Of a stretch of DNA of 64,000 nucleotides, positions 19,381 to 42,005 are shown piece after piece. The stretch is taken from the NCBI RefSeq assembly GCF_900105115.1, contig NZ_FNRV01000001.1, forward strand, positions 6,017,501 to 6,081,500, written 5' to 3'. The notes below the pieces were generated by a model, which made no database searches, was not told where the DNA came from, and saw nothing but the letters and a program-made list of their open reading frames with translations. Numbering within the stretch: position 1 is the first letter of the stretch; the number at the start of each line of letters is the position of its first letter. Source of the DNA: Pseudomonas mohnii. Its GTDB lineage: Bacteria; Pseudomonadota; Gammaproteobacteria; Pseudomonadales; Pseudomonadaceae. Made by a program: the position numbers and the translations under genes.

Positions 19381-19468
19381 TGTGGGGGCGGGCTTGCTCG
19401 CGATAGTGATCGATTCAAAAACGGTGGCGCCTGACGCGCCGCCATCGCGAGCAAGCTCGCTCCCACAC
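19381..19468. repeat. Inverted REP pair at the left edge of the mobile island
   Basis: TGTGGGGGCGGGCTTGCTCG (19381) and the inverted CCATCGCGAGCAAGCTCGCT (19443), about 40 bp apart. Past this point the sequence becomes visibly AT-rich. Confidence 0.8.
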
Positions 19469-19710
19469 CATAGGCTTTCAATATGCGTTGGAATGGATGT
19501 GCAGGTTTTGTTGAGGTTTGCGCGATTAATTTCAGCGATGTTGAATTTTTTTGTCAAAAAAAATGGTACTAGGTTAATTGGCGTCAACATGAATTGGTAC
19601 TGCACCACAAACGTGTGGGCGGAGAGATAGCGATACAGTCACAGTCGTTTTATAATGGGATGTATGGAAACAAGAAATTTTGAGTGTGCGCGTTTTTACG
19701 AAGTAGCGTT
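19469..19710. other. AT-rich gap at the TniQ end of the island
   Basis: No gene is supported; a short plus-strand frame at 19655 is a shadow of tniQ. The stretch contains TGTCA at 19552-19556 followed by two TGGTACT copies 31 bp apart (19564 and 19595), possible but unproven transposon end and transposase-binding sites. Confidence 0.3.
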
Positions 19711-21954
19711 TTACGCGAGGTATTTGTCGCTTTTGGTTGGTGCAGGATATTTCATATGCTTGTACGCATCAATATCGCTTCTCAGGATTAATTTGATTCT
19801 AGAGGTGGGAGCTAATGGATTTGTAGTCGAGGTCAGACGACCACTGTTCAAAAGTGAGCGAGTATATCCTTGCGAGGTGGAAAGCATTTCATCTGCTTCT
19901 GGGCAAGTAACATAATCTCGACAAAGGTGTTCGATTTTATGATGTGCTTTCTCAGAGATGTAGCGTTCGCCGTAATGTGTTTGATGTTCTATAAGTCCTG
20001 CTTTTAAAAATCGATTATAGAAGGTTTCGCTCGATATTTTGTATTTTCTGCATAGTGCTGTGATGGGGTGATCGAGTGAAGAATGGTCTTTTCGAAGAGG
20101 TCTTATGTTTTTTGTGTTCGTTTTTTTCGGTGTTTTCATTTTTGCTAGTTTATTAATTAGCTTGGGTGTAATGTCCGATTTTCTGAAAAAATGAGTTAGA
20201 CCGTTTTTAGCCAAAGGTCCGGCAATCGGCGAAACGCCATTTGCTACTAGCACTAACGCAACACGCGTTTGCGCAATATGGAGTAAGGAAGAAAGCTCGC
20301 GAGGCCTGAATGTAGAGTTGCTGAATTGCAGCGCATCCTGCTTCGCAACAAGGTATTTACCGTGACGGCCCTTGACATGGCAGGGCATGATGCCCAGTCG
20401 TATCAGGTTGTGTATATCACGGCGTTCAATGGACAAAAAATTTGCACATTGCTCGCCACTTAACAGATCGATATTTTTCGAGGGTTCGACGAATGGAAGA
20501 TTGGCACTGAATTTTTTACGTAAGTCGCTGGATGCGGCGAGTGGAGGAGGGCGCAGAAGTTGTTCGATTAACTGTGCATGGTCTGTTCGAAGGATTATTG
20601 ATGGAGCGCCAGAAAAATTACACTCCGGTATCCTGATGTTGATTGCCTCTATTGCATGGGTGACCTTGTACAACTTTACTTTCAGTTCACGAGCGATTTG
20701 CTGGGCACAGACGTATTTTTCATCAAATGACTGAGCCCAAAATTTACCGATCACTTGACAGGAGTATTTGGACTTGTGAATCGCTCCGAAAATCTTGGTC
20801 TTTCTAGCAAGTATTGGGATGGATTTGATTGGTAGGCCGGTGAGTGCAGCAAAATCCTTTATTGAGATAAGCTGCTTGTCGCGATTAACAACTGATTTGT
20901 CCTTTTGGGTGGGGAGAGTGTTAAAGCTGGAATGCAATGCGCAATTCAAGACTTTCTGTACTGAGTCTATCCTTCCGGTTGTTGGCATGTGTCGGTATTC
21001 TTTTAGTTTTAAAAAAGCAAAGCGGTGTTTGATTTTGTACCAGGCTTGATAATTTATTCCAAGATGGGTTAGCAGGGTGCGCAACGAGATCCGGAATTCT
21101 GCAAGTGAGGAACTTTGTTGCGATGGGGTTGCAGCCAGGCGTTGCCGCGTTTTGGAGAGAGTGAGTATGTTCATGCAGGGCTGCAGGATGGCGGTGATAA
21201 TATTTATGTCCTCGTAGGATCTGCAGGGCAGGCAGCAATGTATTGATTGAATGATGTCTTCTAAGTCGTCGCGGTTAATGGCGATGGCCAGGCGTGTCAA
21301 GTGTGTCTTTGTGGTGGGATTGGAGGTGTAGGTGTTCTTTTTCAGGCTTTTCAAGGTGTTTTGAATTGAATGGAATGTCGCCGGTTTGCCATCGCGGAAG
21401 AGGGCAAGTAGGAAGTGAGCGTCTCTCCTGTCCTGAGCCGCTGCATCAGGACTGTTGAGTGAGTGCTTGCAAGCGCATCGTCCTTCCAGCATCTGGCGCC
21501 AATTCAACGTTTTACCACATTCAGGGCAATCGATAAGGTACTGTTTGTCGTGAAAGGGGCAGGCTGCGAACAAGGTTATATCTTTCGGGTAACGCTCCCA
21601 GCCTTCTTTGAAGCATTCGGAACAAAAAGCTGTTGCGTTGAAGCGCAGGTTTATTTTCTCTACTTCAATGCCGTGAATCATGGCGTTGGTTAGCTTTAAA
21701 AATGGGTGGCTGGGTGGGTAGAAGTTTGTGGTAAGGCGATCAGCCGCATGGGGTGCGCATAGGTAAATGGCGCGTGCGGCAGGTGAGTTAGCAAGTATTA
21801 CATTCGCGCGAATCAATTGTGCTGTCGCTTTTCTCAAGTATTCAAAAAGCTTATAACAAGTGGGAAAGCCATTTGCTCTTGCAGTGCGCTGTATCGCACT
21901 CGTGGGGCTTTCATTTTCTAAAGGTAATGGTAAGAATGCCAAATATGAGATCAT
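19711..21954 (-). CDS. tniQ: TniQ-like targeting protein with long multi-HTH C-terminus
   Basis: A 747-residue protein when started at MISYLAFLPLPLENESPTSA, which matches the TniQ N-terminus; the frame opens ten codons earlier. A TniQ zinc region follows with ligands C111/C114, C132/H135, C143/C146 and C160/C162/H164 (FCSEC, ACPFH, DCPEC, CACKH). From about residue 380 onward at least five helix-turn-helix-like segments recur (for example SIKDFAALTGLPIK, GEQCANFLSIERRDIHNLI, PRELSSLLHIAQTRV, CRKYKISSETFYNRFLKAGL, CPEADEMLSTSQ). TniQ/TnsD proteins choose the target for TnsC. TnsD-type proteins are about 500 residues, so this one is long. Strongly AT-rich; foreign. Confidence 0.75.
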   Translation of the reverse strand: MISYLAFLPLPLENESPTSAIQRTARANGFPTCYKLFEYLRKATAQLIRANVILANSPAARAIYLCAPHAADRLTTNFYPPSHPFLKLTNAMIHGIEVEKINLRFNATAFCSECFKEGWERYPKDITLFAACPFHDKQYLIDCPECGKTLNWRQMLEGRCACKHSLNSPDAAAQDRRDAHFLLALFRDGKPATFHSIQNTLKSLKKNTYTSNPTTKTHLTRLAIAINRDDLEDIIQSIHCCLPCRSYEDINIITAILQPCMNILTLSKTRQRLAATPSQQSSSLAEFRISLRTLLTHLGINYQAWYKIKHRFAFLKLKEYRHMPTTGRIDSVQKVLNCALHSSFNTLPTQKDKSVVNRDKQLISIKDFAALTGLPIKSIPILARKTKIFGAIHKSKYSCQVIGKFWAQSFDEKYVCAQQIARELKVKLYKVTHAIEAINIRIPECNFSGAPSIILRTDHAQLIEQLLRPPPLAASSDLRKKFSANLPFVEPSKNIDLLSGEQCANFLSIERRDIHNLIRLGIMPCHVKGRHGKYLVAKQDALQFSNSTFRPRELSSLLHIAQTRVALVLVANGVSPIAGPLAKNGLTHFFRKSDITPKLINKLAKMKTPKKTNTKNIRPLRKDHSSLDHPITALCRKYKISSETFYNRFLKAGLIEHQTHYGERYISEKAHHKIEHLCRDYVTCPEADEMLSTSQGYTRSLLNSGRLTSTTNPLAPTSRIKLILRSDIDAYKHMKYPAPTKSDKYLA

Positions 21955-22257
21955 TTTTTTATTCTCTATTTTTCTAGCAAACACGCGAATTTTTTTCGAA
22001 AAGAGTGTCCGTCTTTTATGCGCCGTGATGGTGGCCGGTAATGTCAGTCGCGCCCATGACGTCGCTTATTGGCAAGGTCTACGGACCACGAATCAGTGCA
22101 GCAAAAAATTACCCTCAGGTGATTGGCGTGTCGCTTGTCTAGGACAGGCAGTAGCTCGCGGCAATTTTCGAAGCCACTTGCTTGGGTGGTGCGCTGCCTG
22201 CCGCTGATTGGGATTTCGTCGGGCAGAGGAAACGGTCCGTAAGAAAGACCGACGTTT
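21955..22257. other. Gap between tnsC and tniQ
   Basis: 303 bp without a supported gene. It probably holds a tniQ promoter, since the other tns genes overlap each other but tniQ does not. Confidence 0.4.
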
Positions 22258-23196
22258 TCATGGTTCACTGTTCGCCATTTCGAGCAAGCGGTTTCTGTCA
22301 ACCTCAAAGGGATTGCCTTCCGCCAACATACAATGGTCGTGACGGGTGATTTCAAAAGCATCTGAAAAGTCTTCACAGCGCAAAGTTCCGTCACCGCGAT
22401 ACAGGGAGAAGGAAAATGCATTCGACAAATGCAGTCTTAGATCCTCCATTATGCCGCCGGAGGCAAAAAATAATGGAAGCGTGATTTCAGGCTCATGCAA
22501 ATGGACGCCTGTCTTCAAATGGCCAATTTCATACATCTTCTTATCCAGCCCTCGAAGCACAAGTTGCAAGTCTGAGCCCGGCTCGGTTAGATCGAGTTGA
22601 AGGGGTGTGAGGCGGGCAAAAAAAGGAAATCGGCGACGAAGTATGTCTTTTTCGTAAAAGAAGCTTTCAATGTCTGGTGTGCCAAGTATGACAAACGGGA
22701 TGCGGGTACGATCGACAAGTCTTGCGACACAGTTGATTACATCAATGCGTGCCTGTTCGGCTTTTTTGTCTGCAAGCATTTGGAATTCATCTAAAAATGC
22801 CACCTCCACATTTTGTAGGAGGATCTGTCGGATAGCGCGCTGAGTCAGTTCGAACGCATCCCCCGAATAGGCTTCAAATTTCAAGGATTCCAAGAGAGCT
22901 TTGGCAAAGGATTTTATCGTCGCTTTGGTGGGGAGCCCGCAATACATCGTAGGTCGTCTGTTCCGTACACCGCCATTATCTTCCTCTGAACTCTCCGGGG
23001 GGTAAGTCGATATGATCTGGTTTGCCAAAGTGCTCTTCCCGCATCCAGACGGTCCTACGAGAACTACGCAAGAAGGAATACCTCGCATCTGCGTGGCCTG
23101 AATAGATCGCATGACAGTCATGTAGGCAAGGTTATAGGACCGGTAATTGATGATTTGAGATTCAAAAGACTTCAACTGTTCGGTGATATCAATCAT
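22258..23196 (-). CDS. tnsC: TnsC/TniB-family AAA+ ATPase of transposition
   Basis: A 312-residue AAA+ regulator. Walker A is GPSGCGKST (residues 48-56), Walker B AFLDEFQ with D136 E137, then sensor-like GTPDIESFF and an arginine-rich RRRFPFF. Its size matches TniB of Tn5053 more than the larger Tn7 TnsC. TnsC links target selection by TniQ to the transposase. The start ATG overlaps the end of tnsB by 8 bp and has a strong GGAGG site inside tnsB. Confidence 0.88.
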   Translation of the reverse strand: MIDITEQLKSFESQIINYRSYNLAYMTVMRSIQATQMRGIPSCVVLVGPSGCGKSTLANQIISTYPPESSEEDNGGVRNRRPTMYCGLPTKATIKSFAKALLESLKFEAYSGDAFELTQRAIRQILLQNVEVAFLDEFQMLADKKAEQARIDVINCVARLVDRTRIPFVILGTPDIESFFYEKDILRRRFPFFARLTPLQLDLTEPGSDLQLVLRGLDKKMYEIGHLKTGVHLHEPEITLPLFFASGGIMEDLRLHLSNAFSFSLYRGDGTLRCEDFSDAFEITRHDHCMLAEGNPFEVDRNRLLEMANSEP

Positions 23197-25102
23197 TTTT
23201 CATAACCTCCGTGATGTCGCCTACAGCGGGCGCGGTGTACATACCAAAGAACTTCGCGATATCGGTGGTAGGGAGATGAGCGCCACTGGGCGGTGCGGGA
23301 CGGCGTGCGGTATCTGACGTAGGGTGTGCCAGACCAATTTTTTCGTCCGTTTGAGCGGCTTTACGGCGACCCCGTTTGTGCTCGTAGTCGTAGCGATCTT
23401 GCATAGTGCGAGTTCTGTGCTCGCGTGCCTCTCTGAAGTCGAACTCCTTGGCCTCCTTATTTTGAGTGGCGTTTAGTAGAAGATGCAGATCCAGAGTAAG
23501 ACCGTCCTGATAACTCATTTCACAGCCCTTGGCGTGAAACACCTTTTCGGGATACTCAGGGTGGGTAACCAGCACCTGCCCCAGGTCGCTTGAGTCGTAG
23601 AAAATGGTGAGAAGCTGCTCCTTGGTACCCAGATCGTGGAGGTTTTTTAGTTCACCGCAGCTCCACTGAAGGTTTTTGAAACGGACTCTGCCTTCGACGA
23701 GTTTGGAGCTTGTCTGACTCAGAAAGAGGCGGGACATGTCTTCGGAAGCAACACGCCGTAAGGGCGGTTGCTTGTTTGCTAACATGGCCCACATTTTGTT
23801 TGGCGACGTACCAATCCCGCGATGCCGACGCTTGTGATAGACATTTTCCAGCCAATCCTCGAAGCGCTCCTTGACGACCTCAAGGGTGTAGATTGCCTTT
23901 TTCTCTGAGGGATAATCGCCTCGTTCCTTGGGGCAGGAGAAGGTGGTGCCACGCAGTCTGTGTGTAAGCCCCGTGGTCAGCGTTTTAAACCAACGCTCTA
24001 CGTATGGTTTTTCGTTAGGGCGGCGCACTCGGCAGTAAGTGATATTGGGGCCGAGCAAGGGGAACAGCCCATCGAGCGCATCTTCTTTGGTGTTCTCCGC
24101 ACCATTATCCAGTCGATATTCTTCGCCGATACCCACCCGGTGGATGGAGTCCTTGAGTGCGCGGATCGTCTTCTGTGCCGAGGGGGGATTGATCGAGATG
24201 TCCCAACCGGTCACTCGTCGAGACGCGACGTCCAGCAGGATGGTGAGCGCGGCTTTGCCAATGGTGTCCCCATACTCATTGACCAGTTCTATATCCAAAA
24301 TATGGGTATCCCCTTCAATCCGCTGCAGGAGACGGTATTGACGCCTGAGCTTCACGCTCCAGCGGCTGGCCTTGATTGCTTCCTGCTCGCCTTTTTGTTT
24401 CAGCAGGCGGCGGAATTCACCACTTTCCCTGATCCTTCGACGGAGGGTACTGTCGGACGGCACGACGATCTGGTCAGTCAGCGGTCGAAGGGTATTGTAT
24501 TGTTCAAGCCCGGACTGGATCGCCCCGATGATGTCGCTGACCGATTCCGGTTCCTCAATGTAGTAGTACTTGTCCAGGCAGTCCTCGATTGTCTCTCGAG
24601 TGATCTCCGGCAGTCGCTCCCATTGATCCTTATGCAGCTTTTTTAAGGGAATCAAAGCGGTCACCGATGCATTGCGCTCCAGATAGCGGTGCACCCAGTT
24701 GCGCAGCGTGTTGAAACACGGCGGGCTGGTGTCTCCGATGATGTCTTTTACCTCGGCGATCAGCGCTTTACAGTCTTCCCTTGGCAACCGACTCTTGAAT
24801 CGTTCGACGGCGGCTCGCACGTATGCAGTACGACGATCAAGTGCAGCTCGACTTTCCGGATTGAGGGCTGCCACGATCTGGTGGTATCGGCCGGAAAATG
24901 GAGCTTCACGCACCTGTACAAACCGTTGGCGTTTGGCTGCTTGCTCCAAGCGCTCGAGCGTCTGCAAGCGCATATTTGACGGTTGCGTGGTGCTGTGCAG
25001 TTCAACGAATCCGCGCGATACGCTCGCGATCACGTAGACATGCCCGTTGTAGCGATACTCCTCACCAACAATCAGTTCGAGGTCACCCACATCGTTTTTC
25101 AT
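23189..25102 (-). CDS. tnsB: TnsB/TniA-like DDE transposase
   Basis: A 637-residue Mu/TnsB-type transposase that joins 3' ends. Residues 1-250 hold N-terminal DNA-binding helices. The retroviral-integrase-like core follows, with catalytic D270 (ILDIEL), D332 (RLDNGAE) and E369 (KPYVERWF), a D-x36-E spacing. A beta-barrel part and a basic C-terminal tail (YEHKRGRRK) complete it. All three acidic residues are intact. Its ATG overlaps the tnsA-like stop by 4 bp and its end overlaps tnsC, so the three form one translationally coupled operon. Confidence 0.92.
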   Translation of the reverse strand: MKNDVGDLELIVGEEYRYNGHVYVIASVSRGFVELHSTTQPSNMRLQTLERLEQAAKRQRFVQVREAPFSGRYHQIVAALNPESRAALDRRTAYVRAAVERFKSRLPREDCKALIAEVKDIIGDTSPPCFNTLRNWVHRYLERNASVTALIPLKKLHKDQWERLPEITRETIEDCLDKYYYIEEPESVSDIIGAIQSGLEQYNTLRPLTDQIVVPSDSTLRRRIRESGEFRRLLKQKGEQEAIKASRWSVKLRRQYRLLQRIEGDTHILDIELVNEYGDTIGKAALTILLDVASRRVTGWDISINPPSAQKTIRALKDSIHRVGIGEEYRLDNGAENTKEDALDGLFPLLGPNITYCRVRRPNEKPYVERWFKTLTTGLTHRLRGTTFSCPKERGDYPSEKKAIYTLEVVKERFEDWLENVYHKRRHRGIGTSPNKMWAMLANKQPPLRRVASEDMSRLFLSQTSSKLVEGRVRFKNLQWSCGELKNLHDLGTKEQLLTIFYDSSDLGQVLVTHPEYPEKVFHAKGCEMSYQDGLTLDLHLLLNATQNKEAKEFDFREAREHRTRTMQDRYDYEHKRGRRKAAQTDEKIGLAHPTSDTARRPAPPSGAHLPTTDIAKFFGMYTAPAVGDITEVMKND

Positions 25103-25752
25103 GTTCGCGCGCTCGGTAATGTGAGGGCTGTCGTGCGCGTAATGGGAAGACGCAGGTCAGCCGTTGCCTCGCCATAGAAGAGCTGGTAGGCGATGTCGCT
25201 GAAATCCGCACCGGCGTCTAAGAGCTCCTGGACCGTGCAGTTGTTGCGATGTTTAAGGATATCCAGCGCGACGCTGGAGTCTTGTGCCTTGAAGCTGAAC
25301 GAATAGCCGTAGAGGTAACGCCATTGAAGCAGTTCGCAGTAGCTGATGTTCGTGTACGGCTGACAAGGACAGAAGGGATAACCCATCTCCCCAAACCAGT
25401 CTTCATGACGAACAAGCTGGTCTTCACAGCCGTCGGACATAAATCGGGTGGTTTCGAAAAAGATCAGCCCCAAATCATCGCCGTAGGCACATACGGCAGG
25501 GGTGTACCGAAATGCCCGGCTGGGTTGTATCAACGTGTACGGGGTCGGCTGGTAGTAGCGGATGTCGCGTCTGCGCTCCAGCATTAAGCAGAAATCCAAC
25601 AAGGTGGGCGACATCCTTAAACAGTTGTCATTTTTTCTTGAATGGATCACCACCAATTGCTGGAAATGCGATCCGTGTCGCCTCGGTTTGAGGAGTTCGA
25701 CCTTGATATCGCGAACAGAATCGGGCTGGCGAAAGAAGAGTTCGGTCTTCAT
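25099..25752 (-). CDS. tnsA: TnsA-like endonuclease homologue with degenerate active site
   Basis: A 217-residue protein from the ATG at 25752 (MKTELFFRQPDSVRD), which has GAGG upstream. The middle matches the TnsA N-terminal nuclease pattern (SPTLLDFCLMLE, RDIRYYQPTPYTL, RYTPAV, LIFFETT), and the C-terminus matches the TnsA winged-helix end (TVQELLDAGADFSDIAYQLF, then ADLRLPITRTT). By position, the usual catalytic Glu is Leu51, the Asp of the YTPD pattern is Ala86 and the Lys of the VEVK pattern is Thr102, so 5'-strand cleavage should be lost. First gene of tnsABC by overlap. The family call rests on pattern and context, not on a search. Confidence 0.62.
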   Translation of the reverse strand: MKTELFFRQPDSVRDIKVELLKPRRHGSHFQQLVVIHSRKNDNCLRMSPTLLDFCLMLERRRDIRYYQPTPYTLIQPSRAFRYTPAVCAYGDDLGLIFFETTRFMSDGCEDQLVRHEDWFGEMGYPFCPCQPYTNISYCELLQWRYLYGYSFSFKAQDSSVALDILKHRNNCTVQELLDAGADFSDIAYQLFYGEATADLRLPITRTTALTLPSART

Positions 25753-26105
25753 TGTCTGAACCTCGTCCGGGTAATTAGGACGTCGGCGATAAACGCACCG
25801 CCTGGTTTCGTTGCCATTCCTGTCAGCGCAACTCAGGAATGTAGAATCAGGACAAGCGCAGTGAACTGCACGCCTGTCCTGATTCATGTCCACAGGGCTG
25901 AAAGCAGCAGATGGCTGCATGGCCGTTTAAACGACGCGACCTATCAAAACGGGGCAGCGTTTGTCCCATTTCGATATAAACATTGCCTGATATTCAGTGA
26001 GCGCAGCGCACATCACAGGCAAGTCGTTTTTTAAACCAGACCTGTCAGTACATATACCTACCCACATGGAGCCCAGTCGCAAGTATCGCGTAGTTTGGGT
26101 GGTGG
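25753..26105. promoter_or_regulatory. Control region upstream of tnsABC
   Basis: 353 bp without a gene. It holds a perfect 11-bp inverted repeat, GAATCAGGACA (25844-25854) with its complement (25875-25885), and a partly overlapping shorter palindrome ATTCCTG/CAGGAAT nearby. This is a candidate operator for autoregulation, or transposase-binding sites of a right end. Confidence 0.4.
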
Positions 26106-26921
26106 TTACTGTTTAAGCTCGGGCGGCGACTGTTCTGCCGTATGGATCGGCTGCCGATCAAACGGCTTGCTGCTTATGCCAGCGAACAGCTTGACGATTG
26201 TGCGCTTGGCAGCGCGCCCGTTGGACAGCGCAAAAAAGTAGTACTCGTCCATGAACAAGCACAATGTTTTGAGAGCCGGAATGTTCAACTGCTGATCGCC
26301 AGGGCGAGAGAGGTTCATCGCCTGAATTTCAGCCTGCATCCGCCGGGCCAATTCAGACTTCGTCGCCCCTGCTACGCAGTACAAGGACTCGAAATAATAG
26401 CCAACCAGGCGTTGAATTTCGGATGGTTGCTGCGCAAAGGACGCCCGAGATTTGCGCAGACGCTGGCCTTTGACCGGCTCTACGCGCACGTAGGCTGAAG
26501 CCGTGGCCTGGCGCTCCAAGTCTTGTTTTGAAGGACGGGCATCATATGACCCGACGTTGGCTGCGAGTCGCCTTGGTCCAATGGGCCGTAACCAGACGCA
26601 ACCATTGTGAATGACACATACTTCGTAGGGGATACCGAGGTACCCGTAGCAGCGCTTGAGATGGCATTGGCTCGAACGGCCGGTGGCATCGGTAGAGGAC
26701 TTCGACAGCATTTCCGGCGACCTGATCGTCGCCTTGGCCAGCGTTCCATCATAAGAGACGCGTTGGTCGATCGGACAGTCGTGTAGCAGATCCCATGCCG
26801 TCGAGATGAAACAGCGTAGCCCAAGTTGGCCGTTTGCTTTTTCTAGGTTTGAAGTGATCTGCCGGGTCTCGATGAGAATGGTGGCAGATGGGCTGTGTTT
26901 ACCCGTGGTATTTACGCTCAT
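26106..26921 (-). CDS. Unrecognised island protein (271 aa)
   Basis: The ATG at 26921 (MSVNTTGKHSPS) is chosen because AAGGAGTC precedes it at good spacing; the frame itself opens further upstream. The product is soluble, with no signal or membrane segment, a Cys-containing middle (QCHLKRCYGYLGIPYEVC, VIHNGCVWLRP) and a basic, helix-rich second half. I do not recognise a family. It lies on the same strand as tnsABC, 353 bp upstream of tnsA, so it may be an early transposition gene or cargo. Confidence 0.55.
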   Translation of the reverse strand: MSVNTTGKHSPSATILIETRQITSNLEKANGQLGLRCFISTAWDLLHDCPIDQRVSYDGTLAKATIRSPEMLSKSSTDATGRSSQCHLKRCYGYLGIPYEVCVIHNGCVWLRPIGPRRLAANVGSYDARPSKQDLERQATASAYVRVEPVKGQRLRKSRASFAQQPSEIQRLVGYYFESLYCVAGATKSELARRMQAEIQAMNLSRPGDQQLNIPALKTLCLFMDEYYFFALSNGRAAKRTIVKLFAGISSKPFDRQPIHTAEQSPPELKQ

Positions 26922-27632
26922 GATGCGAAGACTCCTTAAATGAAAGAACCAACCCATGCTCTCGGCTGATCAAAGCGCAGCCGTCGCCGTTGTGTCCCGC
27001 CGCACTCCCGCTGGGCGTGCCGTGAAGCGGCCGTTTAGAATCAGCTCCAGCACGCCGATCAGGGCCGAGTACCAGGCGACGCTGCACACCCTGCAGGTGC
27101 AGCGCACCGCCATGTACGTTTTCGAACTTGAGGTGCCATCATTGGTCGGGACGGAACGAATTGCTCTGGTTAAACTGGATGACGCGCGCGCGCGATGGTG
27201 GTGGGGATGACTGGCAGTCGTCTCCATTTCCCGAGTGCGAGCCATTCAACGCATTGCTGCATTTGCTGCCTAAACACACAGACCTGGGAATAATTACCGC
27301 CTTTACCGTCACATCACTCATGTTCTTCTCCCATTGTTTAGCGTTGGAAGTGGCAACCGAATCGGGTTGTGCGGAGATTATTTGCCCCCTATTACCGGTA
27401 AGAAATGGCGTTCTGGCGCAACACCAAAAAAAATATATTCCCAACACCGCGGCGAAATTCGCCATCTTGGCGTAGTTTTTTGTTCATTTATGCCGATTCT
27501 GTCCAATTGGTAGACTTTTTTGGCCGTCTTTACGTTTCGTGTAACCTTGCCACTACCTTGCCAGCATCAAATTTTGTTTATGCGGTGCAAGCTATGCTGT
27601 TAGATAATTTTAACGCGCGGAGGACTGTCGAA
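26922..27632. other. Intergenic stretch between divergent island genes
   Basis: About 710 bp with only short overlapping frames on both strands and none with a convincing start. Divergent promoters of the two unrecognised genes must lie here. Confidence 0.4.
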
Positions 27633-28538
27633 GTGACGAGCCCCGTACATCGCCTCGCCCATCGACTCAAGGCGATTGTTTTTATCAATCAACTCATTTT
27701 TCTGGCTGGTATCAGTAGGACCCCAGGTGCGCTGGAGTGCTGGGGTGTAACCTTCGAGGCGCGGCTGGGATTGATCGGACCTGACGGTGGGGAACCGGGT
27801 AAGTGGAGGAATTATCTCACCGGGGTTTTGCCAAAAGGAAAGTTGCGGACTGCCTTGATCAACGAATTTCCGGTACTGGAGGAGGTGTTGGACAACCCCC
27901 TCTGGGCGGTTCTGCACTTGCTAGAAGTGTCGAGCGATCATGGCAAGACATTGGTGATGCAGCTCAGACTGCATGACAAGCCATTGCATGGACTGCAACG
28001 CCCGCGGTTGCAGCGCCGGATCACGACCGCCGACTGGCGGGATCTGGGGTTTTGGTTAGTGATTCTGGCCGGTGATCTGGATAAATACCGCTGGGCACGC
28101 GAGTTTGTGAAGGCGCGCTTTATGGTCTATCTCCATTTGATCTGTGTGCAACGCGAATTCACCGGCGCGGCGAAATGGCTGTATCCACTACTGGATTATC
28201 ATTTCCGTGAGGGGCACTTGGTATCGATGGAGTGGTGGCCGGTAAATACCGAGAAATTTGAAAACTACGTACGCCTGTTTCGTGGGTTTCCGCGCTACTT
28301 GATGAAACAGGTGCAGATCGAAGGTGAACTTGCGCTCGGTTTTTTCTGCGCTGATCCGGAAGGGTTTGCGGCGGTGAGCTCCGGCTACGGCTTGTACTGG
28401 GATGCCGATTGGAACCGGCGGGTGTTGACCTCCAAGGAAAAGCGGTACTTATCTCCACCGCTGCAAATAAGCCTTGAAGGATTACCCGCGGACGGTAAAC
28501 GCCGACGCAGAAGGGCAAGCGAGAAGAGGGCTGTTTGA
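27633..28538 (+). CDS. Unrecognised island protein (301 aa)
   Basis: The GTG at 27633 (VTSPVHRLAHRLKAIVF) has CGGAGGA 9 bp upstream and is preferred over ATGs at 27594 and 27405. The protein has many Trp and aromatic residues (ECWGVTFEARLGLIG, LVSMEWWPVNTEKF, YLMKQVQIEGELALGFF) and a strongly basic C-terminal tail (GKRRRRRASEKRAV) that suggests nucleic-acid contact. No family recognised. It is convergent with the TnpT-like gene (109 bp gap) and probably part of the same mobile module. Confidence 0.6.
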   Translation: MTSPVHRLAHRLKAIVFINQLIFLAGISRTPGALECWGVTFEARLGLIGPDGGEPGKWRNYLTGVLPKGKLRTALINEFPVLEEVLDNPLWAVLHLLEVSSDHGKTLVMQLRLHDKPLHGLQRPRLQRRITTADWRDLGFWLVILAGDLDKYRWAREFVKARFMVYLHLICVQREFTGAAKWLYPLLDYHFREGHLVSMEWWPVNTEKFENYVRLFRGFPRYLMKQVQIEGELALGFFCADPEGFAAVSSGYGLYWDADWNRRVLTSKEKRYLSPPLQISLEGLPADGKRRRRRASEKRAV

Positions 28539-28647
28539 TGAGGCGGTCGCGATGCGGGCTATTTATCTATACGTGGTCGCCGGGTGCCTGGGTGCCAGTA
28601 GCTTGGGGCGGCGTGGGTGAAGGCGGCTGCGAATGGTCGGGCAGCGG

Positions 28648-29628
28648 TCAATCGGGGCCTGTCGGCGCTGATTGAGTCAACCGCTCCACCAGCGTTTGTA
28701 GCTGGGTAATCTGTTGTGTCTGGCTCCGCAGCTCGCGCTGGGTCTGCCTTTGTTTAAGCAATTGCTGCTTGGTCTTCTCGCGCAAAGTGGTGAGCTTGTG
28801 GGCGATGGCATGCATCTGACGCAGATCGCTCTGATGTTCGAGGTCGGCTGCCTGCACTTGCTCCTGGGCCGATTGCAGGGCCTGTTCCAGGCGGCGCGTC
28901 TCTTGATGCTGGCGCAGTTGTTCACCGCTCATGCGCTCCAAATCACGGTACAACTGGCTCAGTTCTTCCTGTTTGCTGAGCAATTGGTCGCGGTTTGTCC
29001 GTGCCTCACGCTGCAATTGCTGGAGTTGCTGATCGTGACGTTGGACCTCTTGTTCGCGCTGGAGCAGGTGCTGTTCCCGATAGTGGTCCAGTGCTTCCTG
29101 AGTCAGGCGGTGTTTATCCTCAAGGGAAACGATCTGCCCCGCCCTGTCCTCAAGCAGGCGCAGTTGTTGCTCATGGGCCTCCTGTAACCGCTGGCTTTCC
29201 ACTTCACACGCCTGTAACTGGCTGGTCAAGGTCTGTTCATGGACCAGGCCAGCCTGTCGGGCTTGTCCCAGGGTGGCGTGGGCCAATTGCAGATGCTCCA
29301 GATGTGCTGCTTCCACTTCCCGTTGTTGCCTGGCTGCCAGTTGCTTACGGTCGAAGGCCGCTCGATCAGCCGCCAGAGCCTCCTCGGCTCGCTGTTGGAC
29401 GCGCACGACTAGACTGGCGATGTAGCGGGTGAGTTCTTCGTCCAGCGGCATTTCCGGCGTAGGAGCCTCGGCCTCCCCGAGTTCCTTGAGATAGCGCTGA
29501 ATGGTGGATTTCGAACCGGTATTGCCCAGCTCAACACGCACGGCGTCGATGCTGGGGTGCAGGCCGCGGGCGAGGAGGGCATTGCGTGCGATCTGAACTA
29601 CTGCCTTATTGACGCCGCCGCGAGCCAT
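28648..29628 (-). CDS. tnpT: KfrA-like coiled-coil DNA-binding protein, TnpT-like
   Basis: A 326-residue protein. Residues 1-60 form a KfrA-type DNA-binding domain (VNKAVVQIARNALLARGLHP, GSKSTIQRYLKELG); the rest is an almost continuous Gln/Glu/Arg/Leu-rich coiled coil. Length, domain order and divergent placement next to a tyrosine recombinase match TnpT, the helper protein of Tn4651-type cointegrate resolution, which binds the res region with TnpS. A plasmid KfrA-like role is the alternative, but the paired recombinase and shared inverted repeat make the transposon role more likely. Confidence 0.72.
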   Translation of the reverse strand: MARGGVNKAVVQIARNALLARGLHPSIDAVRVELGNTGSKSTIQRYLKELGEAEAPTPEMPLDEELTRYIASLVVRVQQRAEEALAADRAAFDRKQLAARQQREVEAAHLEHLQLAHATLGQARQAGLVHEQTLTSQLQACEVESQRLQEAHEQQLRLLEDRAGQIVSLEDKHRLTQEALDHYREQHLLQREQEVQRHDQQLQQLQREARTNRDQLLSKQEELSQLYRDLERMSGEQLRQHQETRRLEQALQSAQEQVQAADLEHQSDLRQMHAIAHKLTTLREKTKQQLLKQRQTQRELRSQTQQITQLQTLVERLTQSAPTGPD

Positions 29629-29805
29629 GGCTTGGCCTCCTACGATTTCGTAGTGTTTTACGCAGTATGGAAGTACAGGTGTACAAAAGCCCGGAATGCA
29701 ACGAACTGGGCGACGAAATAACTCTGGAGAATGCTGATTTCTCCAGAGTTATGCAGCAGTTTTTCGAAATGGGGCTTTTTCGCGGTACGCGAGGAGGGGA
29801 ATCCC
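29629..29805. other. Candidate resolution site (res/rst) between tnpT and tnpS
   Basis: A 177-bp intergenic region with a perfect 14-bp inverted repeat, ATAACTCTGGAGAA (29718-29731) and its complement (29739-29752), around a 7-bp spacer TGCTGAT: the geometry of a tyrosine-recombinase core site. Accessory symmetric elements are TACGATTTCGTA (29641-29652) and two GTAC copies at 29673-29684. Confidence 0.6.
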
Positions 29806-30714
29806 ATGACAGACCCAGCGGATCGTTATCTACGGCCCGTACAGCGGGATAGCACCCAGCGACGCTATCAGGGCGTGCTGAGGTATTTCGAGCAGGGGTG
29901 GGGCGCCTGTTTGCCAGCGTCCGGTGCCACGGTGGTGCGGTATCTGGTGGAACATGCCGAAACGCTGTCCAGCAGCACGTTGGGCCTGCATCTGGCCGCG
30001 CTTGCGCAGTGGCATCGCGGCCACGGTTTCGATGATCCCACCAAAAGCGCAAAAGTACGCCAAGTGCTGCGCAACATCCGCGCGCAACACCCACGCCTGG
30101 TCAAACAAGCCGAGCCTCTGCCGTTGATCGAGCTGGAGCGCTGTGTCGCCGGACTGCAGGAACTGATCGCCAGTGATCACCCGGTGGCACGCCTGCGTGC
30201 TTACCGTGACCAGGCGCTGATTTTGATGGGCTTCTGGCGGGCGTTTCGCGCCGACGAGCTGTGTCGACTGCGGGTGGAGCACAATAGGTTATGCCAGGGG
30301 CAGCAGTTGGAGGTGTTTCTGGGCAGCAGCAAGACGGATCGAGAATTTCGCGGGCAGGTGGTCCTGTTGCCGGCATTGAAGCGTTTGTGTCCGGTGCAGG
30401 CCTACGAGGACTGGCTTTCGATCAGCGAGTTGCAGGAGGGGCCGGTATTTCGTCCGATTAACCAGTGGGGGCAGATCAGTCCCCAAGGGCTCAAGCCCGA
30501 TGGGGTGACCTATGTATTGCGCGAGGCGTTTGCGTGCAGTGGTTTGGATGGTGAGGCCTACACGGGGCATTCATTGCGCCGTGGATTTGCTACGTGGGCG
30601 AATAACGATAACTGGAGCACCAAGCAATTGATGGACTATGTCGGTTGGAGAGATGTGAAGTCGGCCATGCGCTACATTGATACCACCGCTCCTTTTGGAG
30701 ACCTGCGCCGTTAG
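29806..30714 (+). CDS. tnpS: Tyrosine recombinase, TnpS-like
   Basis: A 302-residue site-specific recombinase. An N-terminal SAM-like core-binding domain (residues about 15-95) is followed by the catalytic domain with R148 (WRAFRADELCRL), K176 (SSKTDRE), H255 and R258 (HSLRRGFATW), W281 and the nucleophile Y290 (AMRYIDTTAP): a complete set. Start ATG at 29806 follows GAGGAGGGGAATCCC; the frame opens 25 codons earlier. Divergent from the TnpT-like gene, as in Tn4651-type elements, where the pair resolves cointegrates. Confidence 0.85.
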   Translation: MTDPADRYLRPVQRDSTQRRYQGVLRYFEQGWGACLPASGATVVRYLVEHAETLSSSTLGLHLAALAQWHRGHGFDDPTKSAKVRQVLRNIRAQHPRLVKQAEPLPLIELERCVAGLQELIASDHPVARLRAYRDQALILMGFWRAFRADELCRLRVEHNRLCQGQQLEVFLGSSKTDREFRGQVVLLPALKRLCPVQAYEDWLSISELQEGPVFRPINQWGQISPQGLKPDGVTYVLREAFACSGLDGEAYTGHSLRRGFATWANNDNWSTKQLMDYVGWRDVKSAMRYIDTTAPFGDLRR

Positions 30715-30745
30715 AGGGATTTAGTCGGTATGCTTTTGGCCGGGT

Positions 30746-30772
30746 AGCGACGGTTTAGTTGCGACCGTCGCT
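30746..30772. terminator. Hairpin after tnpS
   Basis: 9-bp inverted repeat AGCGACGGT (30746-30754) / ACCGTCGCT (30764-30772) followed by an AT-rich tail; possible terminator or part of the island edge. Confidence 0.4.
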
Positions 30773-30779
30773 TGTAAAT

Positions 30780-31307
30780 TTAGACCTCCGTCTGCTCAGT
30801 CATTTCTAGAGCATCGTCGACCTCAACTGCCAAACCGTGGGCCTGAACAAGCCTTTTTCCGTGTGGGGTCAGCACCTCTGTGTTGGGATGTCCCGTCTTC
30901 AGAAGGTCGTAGAAAATGTGCTGTGTGTCATTGTTAAGCTCAAGTTTGCAGCGGCCATCGGCATATAAATAATCTGGGATCTCACGTTCATATTCTAGCT
31001 GACCGTGCTCAATCAACTTGCGAAGGATCAGCGACAGGTACAAGCAAGTGGTGGTCAACCGTTGTTGACCGTCAACCACATCCACCACTTTCAAGCGGCG
31101 GGTGCCGTAGTTGACTACCTCAGCGTCACGACCGGCATAAATCACCACCGTTCCGGTGTAATGGCCATGCACCTTTTCGTCAACAAGTGCATCAACATCT
31201 TGGACGAAATCATTCCACTGTTTCTCTACCCACGCATAGCCACGCTGGTAGTCTGGTATTTTATATAGGGACTCTGAAAACAAAGTGGTCATTGTTTTTT
31301 TATGCAT
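30780..31307 (-). pseudogene. Truncated DUF262 (GmrS-like) gene
   Basis: 175 residues from MHKKTMTTLF. They carry the DUF262 hallmarks IPDYQRGYAW (about 17-26) and VVDGQQRLTTTCLYL (about 77-91), the ParB-like nucleotide-binding part of GmrSD-type restriction proteins. The family is usually 350 or more residues. Here similarity-like sequence stops near LTPHGKRLVQAH, and a short unrelated tail precedes the stop, only 66 bp from tnpS. I read this as a 5' gene fragment cut off by the island. Confidence 0.7.
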
Positions 31308-31397
31308 GTCTACGTGTCCCTACCAGCGCAATAAAGTAGACGCCTAGCCATCAAGCTCAGCGGTTAGACCGTACAGGGTTCGTGAGAGGAGGAGACA

Positions 31398-31616
31398 ATG
31401 ACCATGCCGAGTGAGCGCACACGAGCGCTGATTCAGACGCGAGATCTCTTGGTCGAACTTGCACAAGATCCCGGGCTGTCAGAGTCCATTCGACGTCAGG
31501 CCCGCCAGCTGTTACGCCATTATCCCCATGCAAACGAGATACTAAGGGCAGGGCAGCTCGAAGAGCGACGGGTCGACCGGCTGACCGAGCCCTTCCTGAG
31601 CTCCAGTATCGATTAA
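31398..31616 (+). CDS. Small BPSL0761-family protein
   Basis: A 72-residue protein, MTMPSERTRALIQTRDLLVE, with the RQARQLLRHYPHANEI segment typical of the small BPSL0761-type family found near mobile and plasmid-like regions. The strong GAGGAGGAGACA just upstream fixes the start. No known function; the fold is likely helical. It lies on the genome side of the DUF262 fragment. Confidence 0.65.
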   Translation: MTMPSERTRALIQTRDLLVELAQDPGLSESIRRQARQLLRHYPHANEILRAGQLEERRVDRLTEPFLSSSID

Positions 31617-31804
31617 CCGTCTTGGCTAACCATGATCGGCCAAAAGTCGCTGATCCCGAACCATTGATAGGTAAGGGTTAAGCAGTTCTCTCCGATGCTT
31701 CCTACCAAACACGTTTAACCTAAGTCGTAGTGAAATATCAAAACGACACTGGTAATGTCTTGATTACGTTCGTCAAACCATTAAGGGATGGAGGCGAAAA
31801 TAGA

Positions 31805-31848
31805 AGCCCTGGAGCCGCGAACCTCCAGGGCTTTGTTTTTTTGTTTTT
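31805..31848 (+). terminator. Rho-independent terminator
   Basis: 10-bp stem AGCCCTGGAG / CTCCAGGGCT with an 8-nt loop and a long T-run on the plus strand, between the small plus-strand gene and the convergent glcB. Confidence 0.85.
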
Positions 31849-31876
31849 CAACAAGGTAAGGGAATTCGATCAACAT

Positions 31877-34054
31877 TTATTTTTGTTGTTTAAATACGGC
31901 ACGGAAGCGATGCAGAAGCGGCTCTGTATAACCACTCGGTTGGTGCAACCCTTCGAACACGAGCGCACAAGCCGCCTGGAATGCTACCGAGCCTTCGAAG
32001 TCGGAAGCCATCGGTCGATACAGCTGATCGCCAGCATTTTGCTGATCCACCACATGCGCCATGCGCTGCAGGATCTTCAGCGTCTGCTGTTGGTCAATCA
32101 CACCATGACGCAGCCAGTTGGCGATGTGCTGGCTGGAGATACGGAGTGTGGCGCGGTCTTCCATCAGACCAACATCATGGATATCTGGCACTTTGGAGCA
32201 ACCCACGCCTTGCTCGACCCAGCGCACCACATAACCAAGCAGACCCTGTGCGTTGTTTTCCACTTCTTCGCGGATTTGCTCCGCCGTCCATTTAGCGTCA
32301 ACAGCAACTGGCACGGTCAGCAGGTCATTGAGCAGGTCGTCACTAACAGCTGCCAGGTCAATCCCCTCGAGCTCTTGTTGAATCGCCGCTACGTCGACGT
32401 TGTGGTAGTGCAAGGCGTGCAAAGTCGCAGCAGTTGGGGACGGCACCCAGGCAGTGTTCGCGCCTGCTTTCGGGTGCGCGATTTTCTGCTCGACCATGGC
32501 CGCCATCAAGTCGGGCATGGCCCACATGCCTTTACCGATCTGTGCCCGGCCGCGCAATCCGCAGTTCAAGCCGACTAGGACATTGTTGTACTCATAGGCC
32601 TGTATCCAGGCGCTGCTTTTCATGTCGCCTTTGCGCAGCATCGCGCCAGCTTCCATGGAGGTATGCATCTCGTCGCCGGTGCGGTCAAGAAAACCTGTAT
32701 TGATAAAGGCGACACGTGACGCCGCCGCAGCAATGCACGCCTTGAGATTGACGCTGGTGCGGCGCTCCTCGTCCATGATGCCCATCTTCAGCGTGTGGCG
32801 TTCAAGCTGCAGCACGTCTTCGATACAGCTGAACAAGCGCTCGGCGAAAGCAACTTCGGCTGGCCCGTGCATTTTCGGTTTGACGATGTAGACGCTGCCG
32901 GTGCGCGAGTTGCCTTGGCGCTTTAGATCGTGCAGGGCGATCAGGCTGGTGACCATGCCGTCGAGAATGCCTTCGGGAATTTCCCGATTGTTGCCATAGA
33001 GCACGGCCGGGTTGGTCATCAAGTGTCCGACGTTGCGAATGAGCAGCAGCGCGCGGCCGTGCAGTTTGAAGGCAGTACCGTCGACGCCAGTGTATACACG
33101 GTCCCCGTTGAGCCGACGGGTGACGGTTTTGCCGTTCTTCTCCAGCGTCTCTGAAAGATCGCCCTTCATCAGGCCCAGCCAGTTGCGATATACCCGTACC
33201 TTGTCGTCGGCATCGACGGCCGCGACGGAGTCTTCGCAGTCGATGATGGTCGACAAAGCCGATTCGATCAGCAGGTCTTTCACCGAAGCGGCGTCGCTAC
33301 GCCCGATCGGGCTCGTCGGATCGATCTGGATCTCGATATGCAAGCCATTGTTGCGCAGAACGATGGCCGTCGGTGCGGTGGCCGTACCTTGGTAACCCAC
33401 CAATTTTTCGGGCTGACGTAGCGTGGTGTGCTGATCGCCTTTGAGTATGACAGCCAACGCACCACCTAAGATGCGGTACGAAGTGGCGTTGGCGTGTGAG
33501 CCCGACTTCAATGGCAAGGCTTCATCCAGGAAGGCTTTGGCAAAGGCCACAACTTTGGCGCCACGCACCGGGTTGTATCCCATGCCCGATTCTGCACCGT
33601 TGTCGCTGCTGATCACGTCGCTGCCGTACAGGGCGTCATACAATGAGCCCCAACGTGCATTGGCAGCATTCAGGGCATACCGCGCGTTGATGGCGGGCAC
33701 GACCAGCTGCGGCCCTGCCTGTTGGCTGATTTCGCGATCAACTTTGGTGGTGCTGGCCTGTACTTGCGCAGGTTGTGGTTGCAGGTAGCCGATTGAGGAC
33801 AGGAACGCGCGATACGCCGGCATATCGGTGATGGGGCCTGGATTGGCTTTATGCCAGATGTCCAATTCCAGCTGCAAACGTTCGCGGTCGGCCAACAAAG
33901 CCCGGTTGGTCGGCGCCAATTCCTGGACCAGATCGGAGAACCCGCTCCAGAAGGTTTGGACGTCAATGCCTGTGCCGGGCAGGACTTCTTCATCGATAAA
34001 TGCCTGCAGGGCAGGCGCGACCTGCAGCCCGTGAATTTTTACGTAATCAGTCAT
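31877..34054 (-). CDS. glcB: Malate synthase G
   Basis: A 725-residue cytoplasmic enzyme joining glyoxylate and acetyl-CoA to malate. Length is normal for isoform G. Conserved parts include [24 protein letters not shown] near the start and the [28 protein letters not shown] and [17 protein letters not shown] stretches of the barrel active site. The start at MTDYVKIH (34054) follows AGAGAAGAACCC. It is the last gene of the glcDEFG-glcB series (11 bp after glcG); in most pseudomonads glcB stands alone, so the linkage is notable. Confidence 0.97.
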
Positions 34055-34065
34055 GGGTTCTTCTC

Positions 34066-34467
34066 TCAATTCAAGGCTCGGACGCCGGCTGCGGCAATCT
34101 GTGCATCCTGGTCGGCCTTGACGCCGGAAACGCCGACCGCGCCCACGACCTGACCCTCGACAACAATGGGTACGCCACCTTCGAGGGACGTCACCAGCGG
34201 CGCCGAGAGGAATGCGCTACGCCCACCGTTGACCATCTCTTCATAGCCTTTCGACTCGCGTCGACCGAGGGCCGACGTCCGGGCTTTTTCCGTGGCGATG
34301 TAAGCACCGATTGGCGCGCAACCGTCCAAGCGCTCAAGGGCCAGCGGATGACCGCCATCATCCACCACGGCAATGCAGACATTCCATTGGTTGAGCTGGG
34401 CTTCGCTGCGCGCGGCAGCGAGGATCAGGCCGACTTCTTTCTGGCTCAATACGGCTTTGCTGTTCAT
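34066..34467 (-). CDS. glcG: GlcG-type heme-binding/DUF336 protein
   Basis: A 133-residue small soluble protein of the GlcG/HbpS family, from the ATG at 34467 ([16 protein letters not shown]). Family features are [17 protein letters not shown] near residue 40 and the glycine-rich [19 protein letters not shown]. It overlaps the glcF stop by 4 bp. Its role in glycolate oxidation is accessory and not well defined. Confidence 0.9.
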
Positions 34468-35696
34468 GGGTTTTCCTGTGAGTGAATGGCATCTTCGACC
34501 ACCTCGATCCAGTGCCGTACCGGGGTGCGACCGGCACTGTCGAGGTGGGTTTGGCAACCGATGTTGGCGGTGGCAATAACGGTGGGTGAGCCGCTCTCCA
34601 ACGCTTTCATCTTGTTGTCGCGCAGCTGGCGCGAAAGCGTGGGTTGAGTGATTGAGTAGGTGCCCGCAGAGCCGCAGCAAAGATGGCTGTCGGGCACGGC
34701 GGTAAGATGAAATCCCAGGCGAGTCAGAACGCTTTCGACCGCGCCGCCGAGCTTGAGGGCATGTTGCAGTGTGCACGGGCAATGGAAGGCCAGGCGTTGC
34801 TCGCTGCGAGCGCCAAGTTGCTCCAAAGGCTCCGTTTGCAGGACCTCGACCAGATCCTTGCTCATGGCACTGATCCGGGCCGCCTTCTGGGCATACGCCG
34901 GGTCATGCTTGAGCAGATGGCCATACTCCTTGACGAAAGCACCGCAGCCGCTGGCGGTTTGCACGATGGCTTCGGCACCACTTTCGATAGCCGGCCACCA
35001 GGCGTCGATATTGCGCCGGGCTCGCTCCAGCCCCGCTTGCTGGGCGTCGAGGTGGTAGTCAACCGCGCCGCAGCATCCAGCCTGGCTGATTGGCGTGATG
35101 CTGATGCCCAAGCGATCCAGCACCCGCGCGGTGGCAGCATTGGTGTTCGGGGACAAGCTTGGCTGCACGCAGCCTTCGAGCATTAACATCGTTCGTGCGA
35201 GCGTTCGCGTCGGCCTGGGCTTCGCTTGGGTAATGTGCCGCGGCAGTTTCAGTCTTACGGTTTGCGGCAGTAAGGGGCGCAAGCTATTGCCGATTTTCAG
35301 TAAGGGCTTGAACAGCAGTGGGTTGGGCAACAAAGCCCGCAAGCCATGGCGCAACATGCGCTGACCCCTGCTGCGCGGCACTGCCTGATCGACCACGGCA
35401 CGACCAATGTCCAGCAAGTTGTGATAGTTCACGCCGGATGGGCAGGTGGTTTCACAGTTTCTGCACGACAGGCAACGGTCCAGATGTTGTTGCGTCTTGG
35501 CCGTGACTTCGTTGCCTTCCAGCACTTGCTTGATCAGGTAGATGCGCCCGCGCGGGCCATCCAGTTCATCACCCAACAGTTGGTAGGTCGGGCAGGTGGC
35601 ATTGCAGAAACCGCAATGTACGCAACTGCGCAGGATGCTTTCGGCTTCTTCTGCGCGCTCCAGTCGCTGGGCTTTTTCGCTCAAGGTGGTTTGCAT
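34464..35696 (-). CDS. glcF: Glycolate oxidase iron-sulphur subunit GlcF
   Basis: A 410-residue electron-transfer subunit. Two 4Fe-4S motifs (CVHCGFCNATCPTYQ at about 25-39, CLSCRNCETTCPSGV at about 75-89) precede two cysteine-rich CCG domains (AGCCGAVDYH and LCCGSAGTYS). GlcF passes electrons from GlcDE to the membrane quinone pool. The ATG at 35696 (MQTTLSEKAQRLERAEEAES) is the usual family start; 2 bp separate it from the glcE stop. Confidence 0.95.
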   Translation of the reverse strand: MQTTLSEKAQRLERAEEAESILRSCVHCGFCNATCPTYQLLGDELDGPRGRIYLIKQVLEGNEVTAKTQQHLDRCLSCRNCETTCPSGVNYHNLLDIGRAVVDQAVPRSRGQRMLRHGLRALLPNPLLFKPLLKIGNSLRPLLPQTVRLKLPRHITQAKPRPTRTLARTMLMLEGCVQPSLSPNTNAATARVLDRLGISITPISQAGCCGAVDYHLDAQQAGLERARRNIDAWWPAIESGAEAIVQTASGCGAFVKEYGHLLKHDPAYAQKAARISAMSKDLVEVLQTEPLEQLGARSEQRLAFHCPCTLQHALKLGGAVESVLTRLGFHLTAVPDSHLCCGSAGTYSITQPTLSRQLRDNKMKALESGSPTVIATANIGCQTHLDSAGRTPVRHWIEVVEDAIHSQENP

Positions 35697-35698
35697 GA

Positions 35699-38705: not shown

Positions 38706-38716
38706 TGGAAAATCCC

Positions 38717-39016: not shown

Positions 39017-39080
39017 GGGGTGTACCTCCAGGATTCAGTCGAAGGGTGACGTTCATACTATAGCTGGCTTTTTATCAAAA

Positions 39081-42002: not shown

Positions 42003-42005
42003 GCT

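Follow-up and report, generated by a model that had tools for sequence, protein, structure and literature searches.

A Tn7-like transposon of Pseudomonas mohnii with a degenerate TnsA and a Tn4651-type TnpS/TnpT module

A 64,000-nucleotide stretch of Pseudomonas mohnii DNA (contig NZ_FNRV01000001.1, positions 6,017,501 to 6,081,500; hereafter the window) contains the left part of a large Tn7-like transposon, whose TnsA-like protein lacks the catalytic residues of the TnsA nuclease and which carries a TnpS/TnpT module of the type known from the Tn3-family transposon Tn4651. This transposon probably moves replicatively, with TnpS and TnpT resolving the products and with a module older than the failure of TnsA. 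The best reading of the family as a whole is that a resident resolvase allowed TnsA to decay repeatedly to a structural subunit, with a shift to replicative transposition. A more specific proposal, in which the Tn4651-type resolvase permitted at least three to four losses of the TnsA nuclease with the protein itself retained as a structural subunit, and in which the same rst site lets elements swap their cargo half, seems to us evenly balanced between right and wrong. An initial annotation of this DNA had proposed a degenerate TnsA beside a Tn4651-type module in one element; the degenerate protein, the genuine TnpS/TnpT pair with an rst-like site, and their position within one pair of ends are all supported here.

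The TnsA-like pseudo-nuclease (217 residues; 25099..25752, minus strand) was characterized by alignment, profile and an AlphaFold2 model. Where intact relatives have the motifs SLLESDF, YTPDF and EVK around the catalytic Glu, Asp and Lys, the window protein reads SPTL-LDF, YTPAV and ETT. In the alignment Ala and Thr thus replace Asp and Lys, while the Glu position is taken by Leu or lost through deletion of one residue, as first annotated for the substitutions. A homologue search over 5.8 billion proteins returned 17 close TnsA homologues; the alignment took in 15 of them, which share 67-93% identity with the window protein. The catalytic residues are gone in all 15 of these full-length sequences: according to where a one-residue gap is placed, Glu is either replaced by Leu or missing, Asp is replaced by Ala or Ser, and the Lys position is variable. 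A sixteenth, incomplete homologue (P0016), aligned later, begins past the first motif, and its residues at the Asp and Lys positions are Ser and Thr; P0017 was left unaligned. The family profile aligns to the TnsA of PseTnsAB entries with Glu, Asp and Lys in register. In the structural comparison called for in the initial annotation, the model (predicted local distance difference test, pLDDT, 88; predicted template-modelling score 0.82) gave three matches in the PDB at E <= 0.001, namely the TnsABCD transpososome chain 9bw1_M and two Tn7 TnsA chains (1t0f), with modest template-modelling scores (0.48-0.57 by query length, rmsd, the root-mean-square deviation, 6-8). We take E63, D114 and K132 to be the catalytic residues of Tn7 TnsA. 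Intact acidic and lysine residues, which would have contradicted the annotation, were looked for at this site and were absent; the element thus lacks the nuclease residues of TnsA by which a cut-and-paste Tn7 is recognized.

The remaining transposition genes are open. The genes tniQ, tnsC, tnsB and tnsA lie on the minus strand (19711-25752) and are followed by orf283, orf377, tnpT and tnpS; tnsA and tnsB share 4 bp (25099-25102), and tnsB and tnsC share 8 bp (23189-23196), in agreement with the overlaps already reported. TnsB, a DDE transposase (23189..25102, minus strand), was identified from an alignment of nine sequences and matches to solved TnsB structures. Its triad had been given as D270-D332-E369; D332 and E369 stand, but D265 is the more likely first residue, being invariant together with the other two in 9/9 aligned TnsB proteins, whereas D270 is His in one of them. 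TnsC is a TnsC/TniB AAA ATPase (22258..23196, minus strand; Pfam TniB 5.5e-19). The 757-residue TniQ-family target selector (19711..21984, minus strand) contains a helix-turn-helix region and was assigned by syntenic homologues and domain matches (Pfam TniQ, E 9e-4, under the gathering cut-off; HTH_17, 3e-9; PADLOC TniQ_IF, 4e-9). In the available text of one study, a Tn7-like transposon is defined by TnsB and TnsC plus TnsA and/or TniQ (PMC11406308), a combination that the element has. The span 22258..30714 first annotated is part only of the element: tniQ belongs to it as well, and the right end lies about 78 kb past the window.

The second component is the divergent TnpT-like/TnpS-like pair, whose Tn4651 type is borne out by homology, orientation and an intervening rst-like site. 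TnpS (302 residues; 29806..30714, plus strand, with ATG at 29806) is a tyrosine recombinase with a Pfam Phage_integrase domain and a PDB match to Cre, and is 50% identical to the TnpS of Tn4651 (pWW0). The TnpT-like helper (28648..29628, minus strand; Pfam KfrA_N, 5e-20) is 46% identical to its Tn4651 homologue over 235 columns. Between the two genes lie an 18-nt accessory palindrome, CTCCTACGATTTCGTAGT (29637..29654), with the same sequence in Tn4651, and an rst-like core site of 13-7-13 layout, TAACTCTGGAGAA-TGCTGAT-TTCTCCAGAGTTA (29719..29751). All 13/13 pairs of the core match, which was equalled by 0/60 shuffles, and the core lies 90 nt from the TnpT start; the counterpart in Tn4651, a putative rst, is offset by 89 nt and has 9/13 pairs with a spacer of 7. 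With a spacer of 7 and an offset of 80-100, 9/13 pairs are reached in 21 of 34 loci as well as in Tn4651, while core sites of 10/13 pairs were equalled in 6-13 of 60 shuffles. At the usual place L074 has a core of 8/13 pairs; in L026 and L173, where tnpS and tnpT are far apart, the site is located elsewhere, and L081 has a different offset. A convincing core site was not found in the remaining loci scanned, among them the dead-TnsA loci L029 and L030. TnpS and TnpT of Tn4651 are described as a cointegrate resolvase (PMC7157771).

The ends enclose both components. In a paired test of left and right candidates near the host junction, 19469 and 141702 (extended coordinates, outside the window) scored 12/16 and were flanked by the 5-bp duplication CACAC (left 19464..19468; right 141703-141707), the next pair reaching 9. 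The element therefore measures 122,234 bp (19469..64000 in the window and on to extended 141702; G000:C1:6036969-6159202), and its terminal repeats, CATAGGCTTTCAATAT and CGTAGTTTTTCAGTAT, match at 12/16 positions. A 5-bp duplication and terminal inverted repeats, as in Tn7-like transposons, are thus present. In the related genomes G002 and G005, which lack the element, only about 0.57 and 0.73 kb separate the two flanks, against 122 kb in the window's genome. On the right, host homology sets in again at 141732, 25 bp after the end of the CACAC copy; on the left, host homology ends 165 bp short of the element end, so the empty site is not exact. Ends that excluded tnpST would have contradicted the annotation; the pair found encloses tnpST, as do the ends of relatives. 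An initial left-end search within 40 kb found none, and an end at 19523, suggested by a TGAAATTAATCG motif, was rejected along with guesses from terminal matches, as no partner with a duplication was found. T-rich repeats were noticed by eye near some ends.

As had been suggested, relatives with tns genes and tnpST inside one pair of ends were sought, and three with a dead TnsA were delimited: L178 (61.6 kb, TTAGC duplication, 12/16 terminal match), L176 (78.0 kb, GCGGC, 13/16) and L023, on a P. putida plasmid (56.0 kb, GCTAC, 13/16). Random single ends reached 12/16 in 1, 1 and 4 of 200 trials for these relatives. In L176 and L023 a terminal CGGTGTTTCTCA is common to both ends; an early right-end candidate for this pair was discarded, and the paired left/right search gave the present ends. 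The two are about 92% identical over the core and part of the cargo either side of tnpST, and share the left end but not the flanks, L176 lying on a 4.6-Mb contig of a genome whose genus code differs from the window's. They are one dead-TnsA lineage at two unrelated sites, which most likely moved after the loss. Given two sites with their own duplications, at least one move most likely occurred without the TnsA Glu and Lys, unless identical decay happened in parallel. Two intact-motif relatives, L028 and L073 (G276 and G382; 79.6 and 93.0 kb), split a LuxR-type response-regulator gene at the same position, with AGAGG and GGAGG duplications, the second with weak terminal similarity; this suggests site-specific targeting by their TniQ. 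The six delimited elements span 56-122 kb.

The order of events was read from a wider survey. TnsB searches gave matches in 42/398 genomes of the genus (at E <= 1e-40), 23/398 of the family and 9/369 of the class, each count including the window's genome. Plasmids were also searched, and regions of mostly 20 kb were taken, with genes mapped by profiles built here. Genus matches weaker than about 1e-100 were only sampled, and G621, G650, G1004, G230 and the second G784 match were left out. With one TnsB or one TnsA sequence as query, a genome-contig collection yielded no relative, and the same was true of viral contigs for TnsB and of plasmids for TnsA. The resulting 47-row TnsB tree omits L024 (the same element as L023), L031, L091, L092, L094, L096 and L097, and represents the frameshifted TnsB genes of L033, L075, L085 and L090 by their longest piece alone. 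The order tnpS-tnpT-orf377-tnsA-tnsB-tnsC-tniQ recurs in the family. Both TnpS and TnpT were matched in 31 rows, TnpS only in one (L082), TnpT only in three (L079, L083, L179) and neither in 12, counted within the fetched stretch, so that a missing match does not amount to absence from the element. orf377 accompanies 34 of the 35 rows with either match and none of the 12 without.

TnsA is degenerate in 11 of the 47 rows and intact in motif in 36. All three residues are lost in the window; L023/L176 have E->Q and K->R; L029/L030 have E->H and K->C or S; L074/L177/L178/L180 have E->Q with Lys lost; and L081/L082 have E->Q, D->H and K->Q or R. In L169, counted as intact, an insertion of about 0.9 kb interrupts tnsA (7882-9456) relative to the otherwise near-identical L168; this adds one more TnsA loss, a recent one, in an element that carries tnpST. 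All 11 dead rows have a TnpS match and 10 also a TnpT match, while the 12 rows with neither all have intact TnsA motifs. The window falls, on a long, flagged branch, in a 26-row clade supported at 100/100, with nearest neighbours weakly supported (83/54); here tnpT and orf377 occur in 26/26 rows, tnpS in 25/26 and intact TnsA motifs in 17/26. Parsimony on this tree, and likewise on a 36-row tree holding the omitted rows, gives four TnsA-loss changes, three of which are forced by starred (well-supported) branches in the 47-row tree. The case of L081/L082 is the weaker one, since these lie outside the 26-row clade, their recombinase is only distantly TnpS-like, and the TnpT match is weak in L081 and missing in L082.

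In the initial proposal, the element took up TnpS/TnpT to make good a prior loss of 5' cleavage. This order finds no support: 21 of the 47 rows combine intact TnsA motifs with both tnpS and tnpT, and since intact-motif members across the 26-row clade carry the module, tnpST predates the TnsA losses there. Later acquisition as compensation was therefore rejected on the tree. The picture suggests that the resolvase came first and the nuclease loss later, unlike a "lose tnsA, gain resolvase" wording, and the family would offer natural, replicated shifts from cut-and-paste to replicative transposition, with intact-motif sisters as controls.

In related lineages, dead TnsA is under purifying selection. 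The ratio of non-synonymous to synonymous substitution rates (dN/dS) was 0.34, 0.15, 0.35, 0.25 and 0.18 in five of six dead-TnsA pairs (the sixth was saturated), with four of the five values involving one group (L074, L177, L178, L180) and the last having a dS of 1.65. Intact TnsA gave 0.16, 0.11, 0.15 and 0.11 in four of five pairs (the fifth saturated), two of them with dS above 2; some of the frames used contain mis-called starts. The values come from other dead lineages, conservation in the window's own clade being judged at the protein level. They fit a dead TnsA kept as a structural part under somewhat relaxed constraint, and suggest a role of TnsA beyond cutting that is preserved by selection.

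These observations can be assembled into a mechanism. TnsB, guided by TnsC and the TniQ protein, would cut and join the 3' ends. TnsA would keep its fold, as modelled, and its place in the machinery, as purifying selection in related dead-TnsA lineages indicates, but with its catalytic residues lost would be unable to nick the 5' ends. Without that nick, each transposition event should yield a cointegrate, in which TnpS with TnpT would recombine the two rst copies to leave a simple insertion flanked by a 5-bp duplication. The window and three dead-TnsA relatives do display simple insertions bounded by terminal repeats and such duplications, and recombination at the core may be read from natural breakpoints in relatives. 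With TnpS/TnpT in the family before TnsA failed, the nuclease would have become dispensable at least three times.

Several observations weigh against this account. That TnsA is dead is a reading of its sequence, and several degenerate TnsA lineages, though not the window's, retain Asp. When the right end was sought over 190 kb, 89,348 pairs gave one match of 13 and several of 12, and shuffled controls did likewise, so that support for the window ends, which match at 12/16, comes from the host junction. The separate loss in the window depends on a 13-row group with an unstarred branch (93/86), and the window row is flagged as long. Intact-motif relatives bear the same TnpS/TnpT module, which may serve another function. 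The correlation between resolvase and TnsA loss was not significant (three to four independent pairs, p 0.5-1), a comparison that is underpowered. Finally, L091 and L094, outside the 47-row tree, have no TnsA or TnpS/TnpT match in 20 kb; either TnsA absence without the module exists or matches were missed, and L094 may be such a case, as its near neighbour L097 has a weak TnsA match. In view of the correlation and of L091/L094, that the resolvase permitted the losses is something we infer.

The breakpoints themselves raise another explanation, in which TnpS/TnpT mainly exchange cargo or resolve multimers, rst recombination swapping the side with tnpS and cargo against the tnpT-tns side, and TnsA decay is only loosely connected. 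In four of nine pairs compared, more divergent tnpS sides are joined to near-identical tnpT sides (93-100% over about the first 700 nt) with the identity step at the core; L028 occurs in two of these pairs, and the step in L182/L184 is smaller. L028/L075 and L028/L073 are identical at every base over a run that starts one base within the outer edge of the core and extends to -68 and -44; in L177/L178 the changeover falls within the core, and in L182/L184 the last mismatch is in its outer arm. Such steps suggest natural TnpS crossovers at the core. Exchange is further favoured by the contrast between TnpS (dS 2.3) and TnpT (dS 0.03) in L177/L178, and by the 21 rows that keep the module beside intact TnsA motifs. 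However, the same genes act in Tn4651 as a described cointegrate resolvase (PMC7157771), exchange can be a by-product of resolution, and dead-TnsA elements occur as simple insertions; we regard exchange as the main function as unlikely, if worth serious attention. The family also points to large transposons with a built-in, possibly cargo-swapping recombination site. Another possible sign of tnpS-side exchange is that L168, L169 and L182 each have two TnpS-like genes, the second some 1-3 kb past the first.

Cut-and-paste transposition might also persist, with the 5' cut made by substitute residues of TnsA, by a host nuclease or by an intact TnsA acting in trans. The two routes cannot be told apart from clean insertions with duplications, and a TnsA with intact motifs is encoded at a second Tn7-like locus of the host genome (L031; G000:C1 3312001-3332000). 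Yet all three positions are gone in the window clade, the Lys position varies among close homologues, and the L031 TnsB is only 25% identical over 287 columns, which makes supply of TnsA across elements unlikely; the explanation as a whole is quite improbable. Elsewhere in the host genome, a TnsA-N-domain match occurs near G000:C2 ~43600, with no match to the family profiles in the surrounding 20 kb. Very unlikely, too, is that the island has decayed and lost mobility, with erosion of TnsA as part of that decay: gene fragments directly right of tnpS are in its favour, but tnsABC, tniQ, tnpS and tnpT are all open, close TnsA homologues are 67-93% identical, and dead lineages are under purifying selection, with copies that have moved with duplications. 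We give almost no weight to a targeting role of the recombinase like that of TnsF in Tn6022-like elements, a protein that carries an inactivated tyrosine recombinase domain and targets comM (PMC10293859), even with two relatives splitting one gene at an identical place. TnpS is accompanied, in the Tn4651 arrangement, by a helper gene and an rst-like site at which natural breakpoints fall, and TniQ is present to choose targets.

Under the preferred reading of replicative movement with TnpS/TnpT resolution, the element resembles several known systems without coinciding with any. It is like Tn4651 in its divergent genes, core-site offset and accessory palindrome, but has tnsABC-tniQ transposition genes and short terminal repeats of another kind; no Tn3 TnpA transposase was seen among the proteins scanned, which cover part of the 122-kb element. 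It also resembles the transposases of type I-F3 CRISPR-associated transposons (CASTs), to which PseTnsAB belongs: among solved structures, the chains closest to its TnsA and TnsB profiles are those of PseTnsAB and of Tn6677 TnsB. Here, by contrast, no CRISPR protein was found among the 10 cluster proteins scanned, TnsA is inactive and TnpS/TnpT are present. Tn7 mutated in the TnsA active site and TnsA-less V-K CASTs are both described as giving replicative products (PMC8649781, PMC11406308), whereas here the presumed loss is natural, repeated and paired with a resolvase. The tnsA-less Tn7-like elements with a tyrosine or serine resolvase, Tn5053 among them (Benler et al., 2021; branches within clades 2 and 3), share TnsB, TnsC and TniQ and are predicted to transpose replicatively with completion by a resolvase (PMC8649781). 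They differ from the present element, which retains tnsA as a pseudo-nuclease and has for a resolvase TnpS/TnpT with an rst-like site, a module found in relatives with intact TnsA motifs too. The initial annotation knew of no Tn7-like element of this design. No description of a retained, naturally inactive TnsA with TnpS/TnpT appeared in the literature searched (the subscription papers on Tn4651 lying outside its scope), but a link between absence of the tnsA gene and a tyrosine or serine resolvase in Tn7-like elements had already been published (PMC8649781). TnpT and TnsB co-occurred in one full-text match, in separate rows of one table (PMC3056050).

Two further genes lie between the components. 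orf283 (26106..26957, minus strand) is similar in part to residues ~158-286 of relatives' TnsB (blastp E 5e-6 to 5e-4) and is possibly, from this similarity, a TnsB-derived regulator or remnant; in L030 (8517-10278), a neighbouring open reading frame (ORF) is also weakly TnsB-similar. orf377 (27405..28538, plus strand; true start probably later, e.g. 27558) is the companion of tnpS/tnpT, and its model is mostly helical at medium confidence (pLDDT 75). Short ORFs between tnsA and tnsB in L026 (17311-17586) and L033 (10911-11540) repeat TnsB ~residues 322-379, which include the second and third catalytic positions, and L078 (6724-8447) and L173 (7542-8720) each have two neighbouring TnsA-like ORFs.

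The cargo is of catabolic type. Genes at 31877-38256 resemble a glycolate oxidase/malate synthase G operon, and acyl-CoA, DUF1302/DUF1329 and MMPL genes lie within 38-141 kb (extended). Ten element proteins scanned matched CoA-transferase III, amidohydrolase, DUF1302, DUF1329, MMPL, acyl-CoA dehydrogenase, AMP-binding ligase, thiolase, helicase-like and inositol monophosphatase-like families. Directly right of tnpS, an ORF at 30732-31307 fuses an N-terminal GmrSD fragment to a tail like the last part of an ORF elsewhere in the genome (L138 5201-5458), which was judged integrase-like by eye, and is recombination debris within the element.

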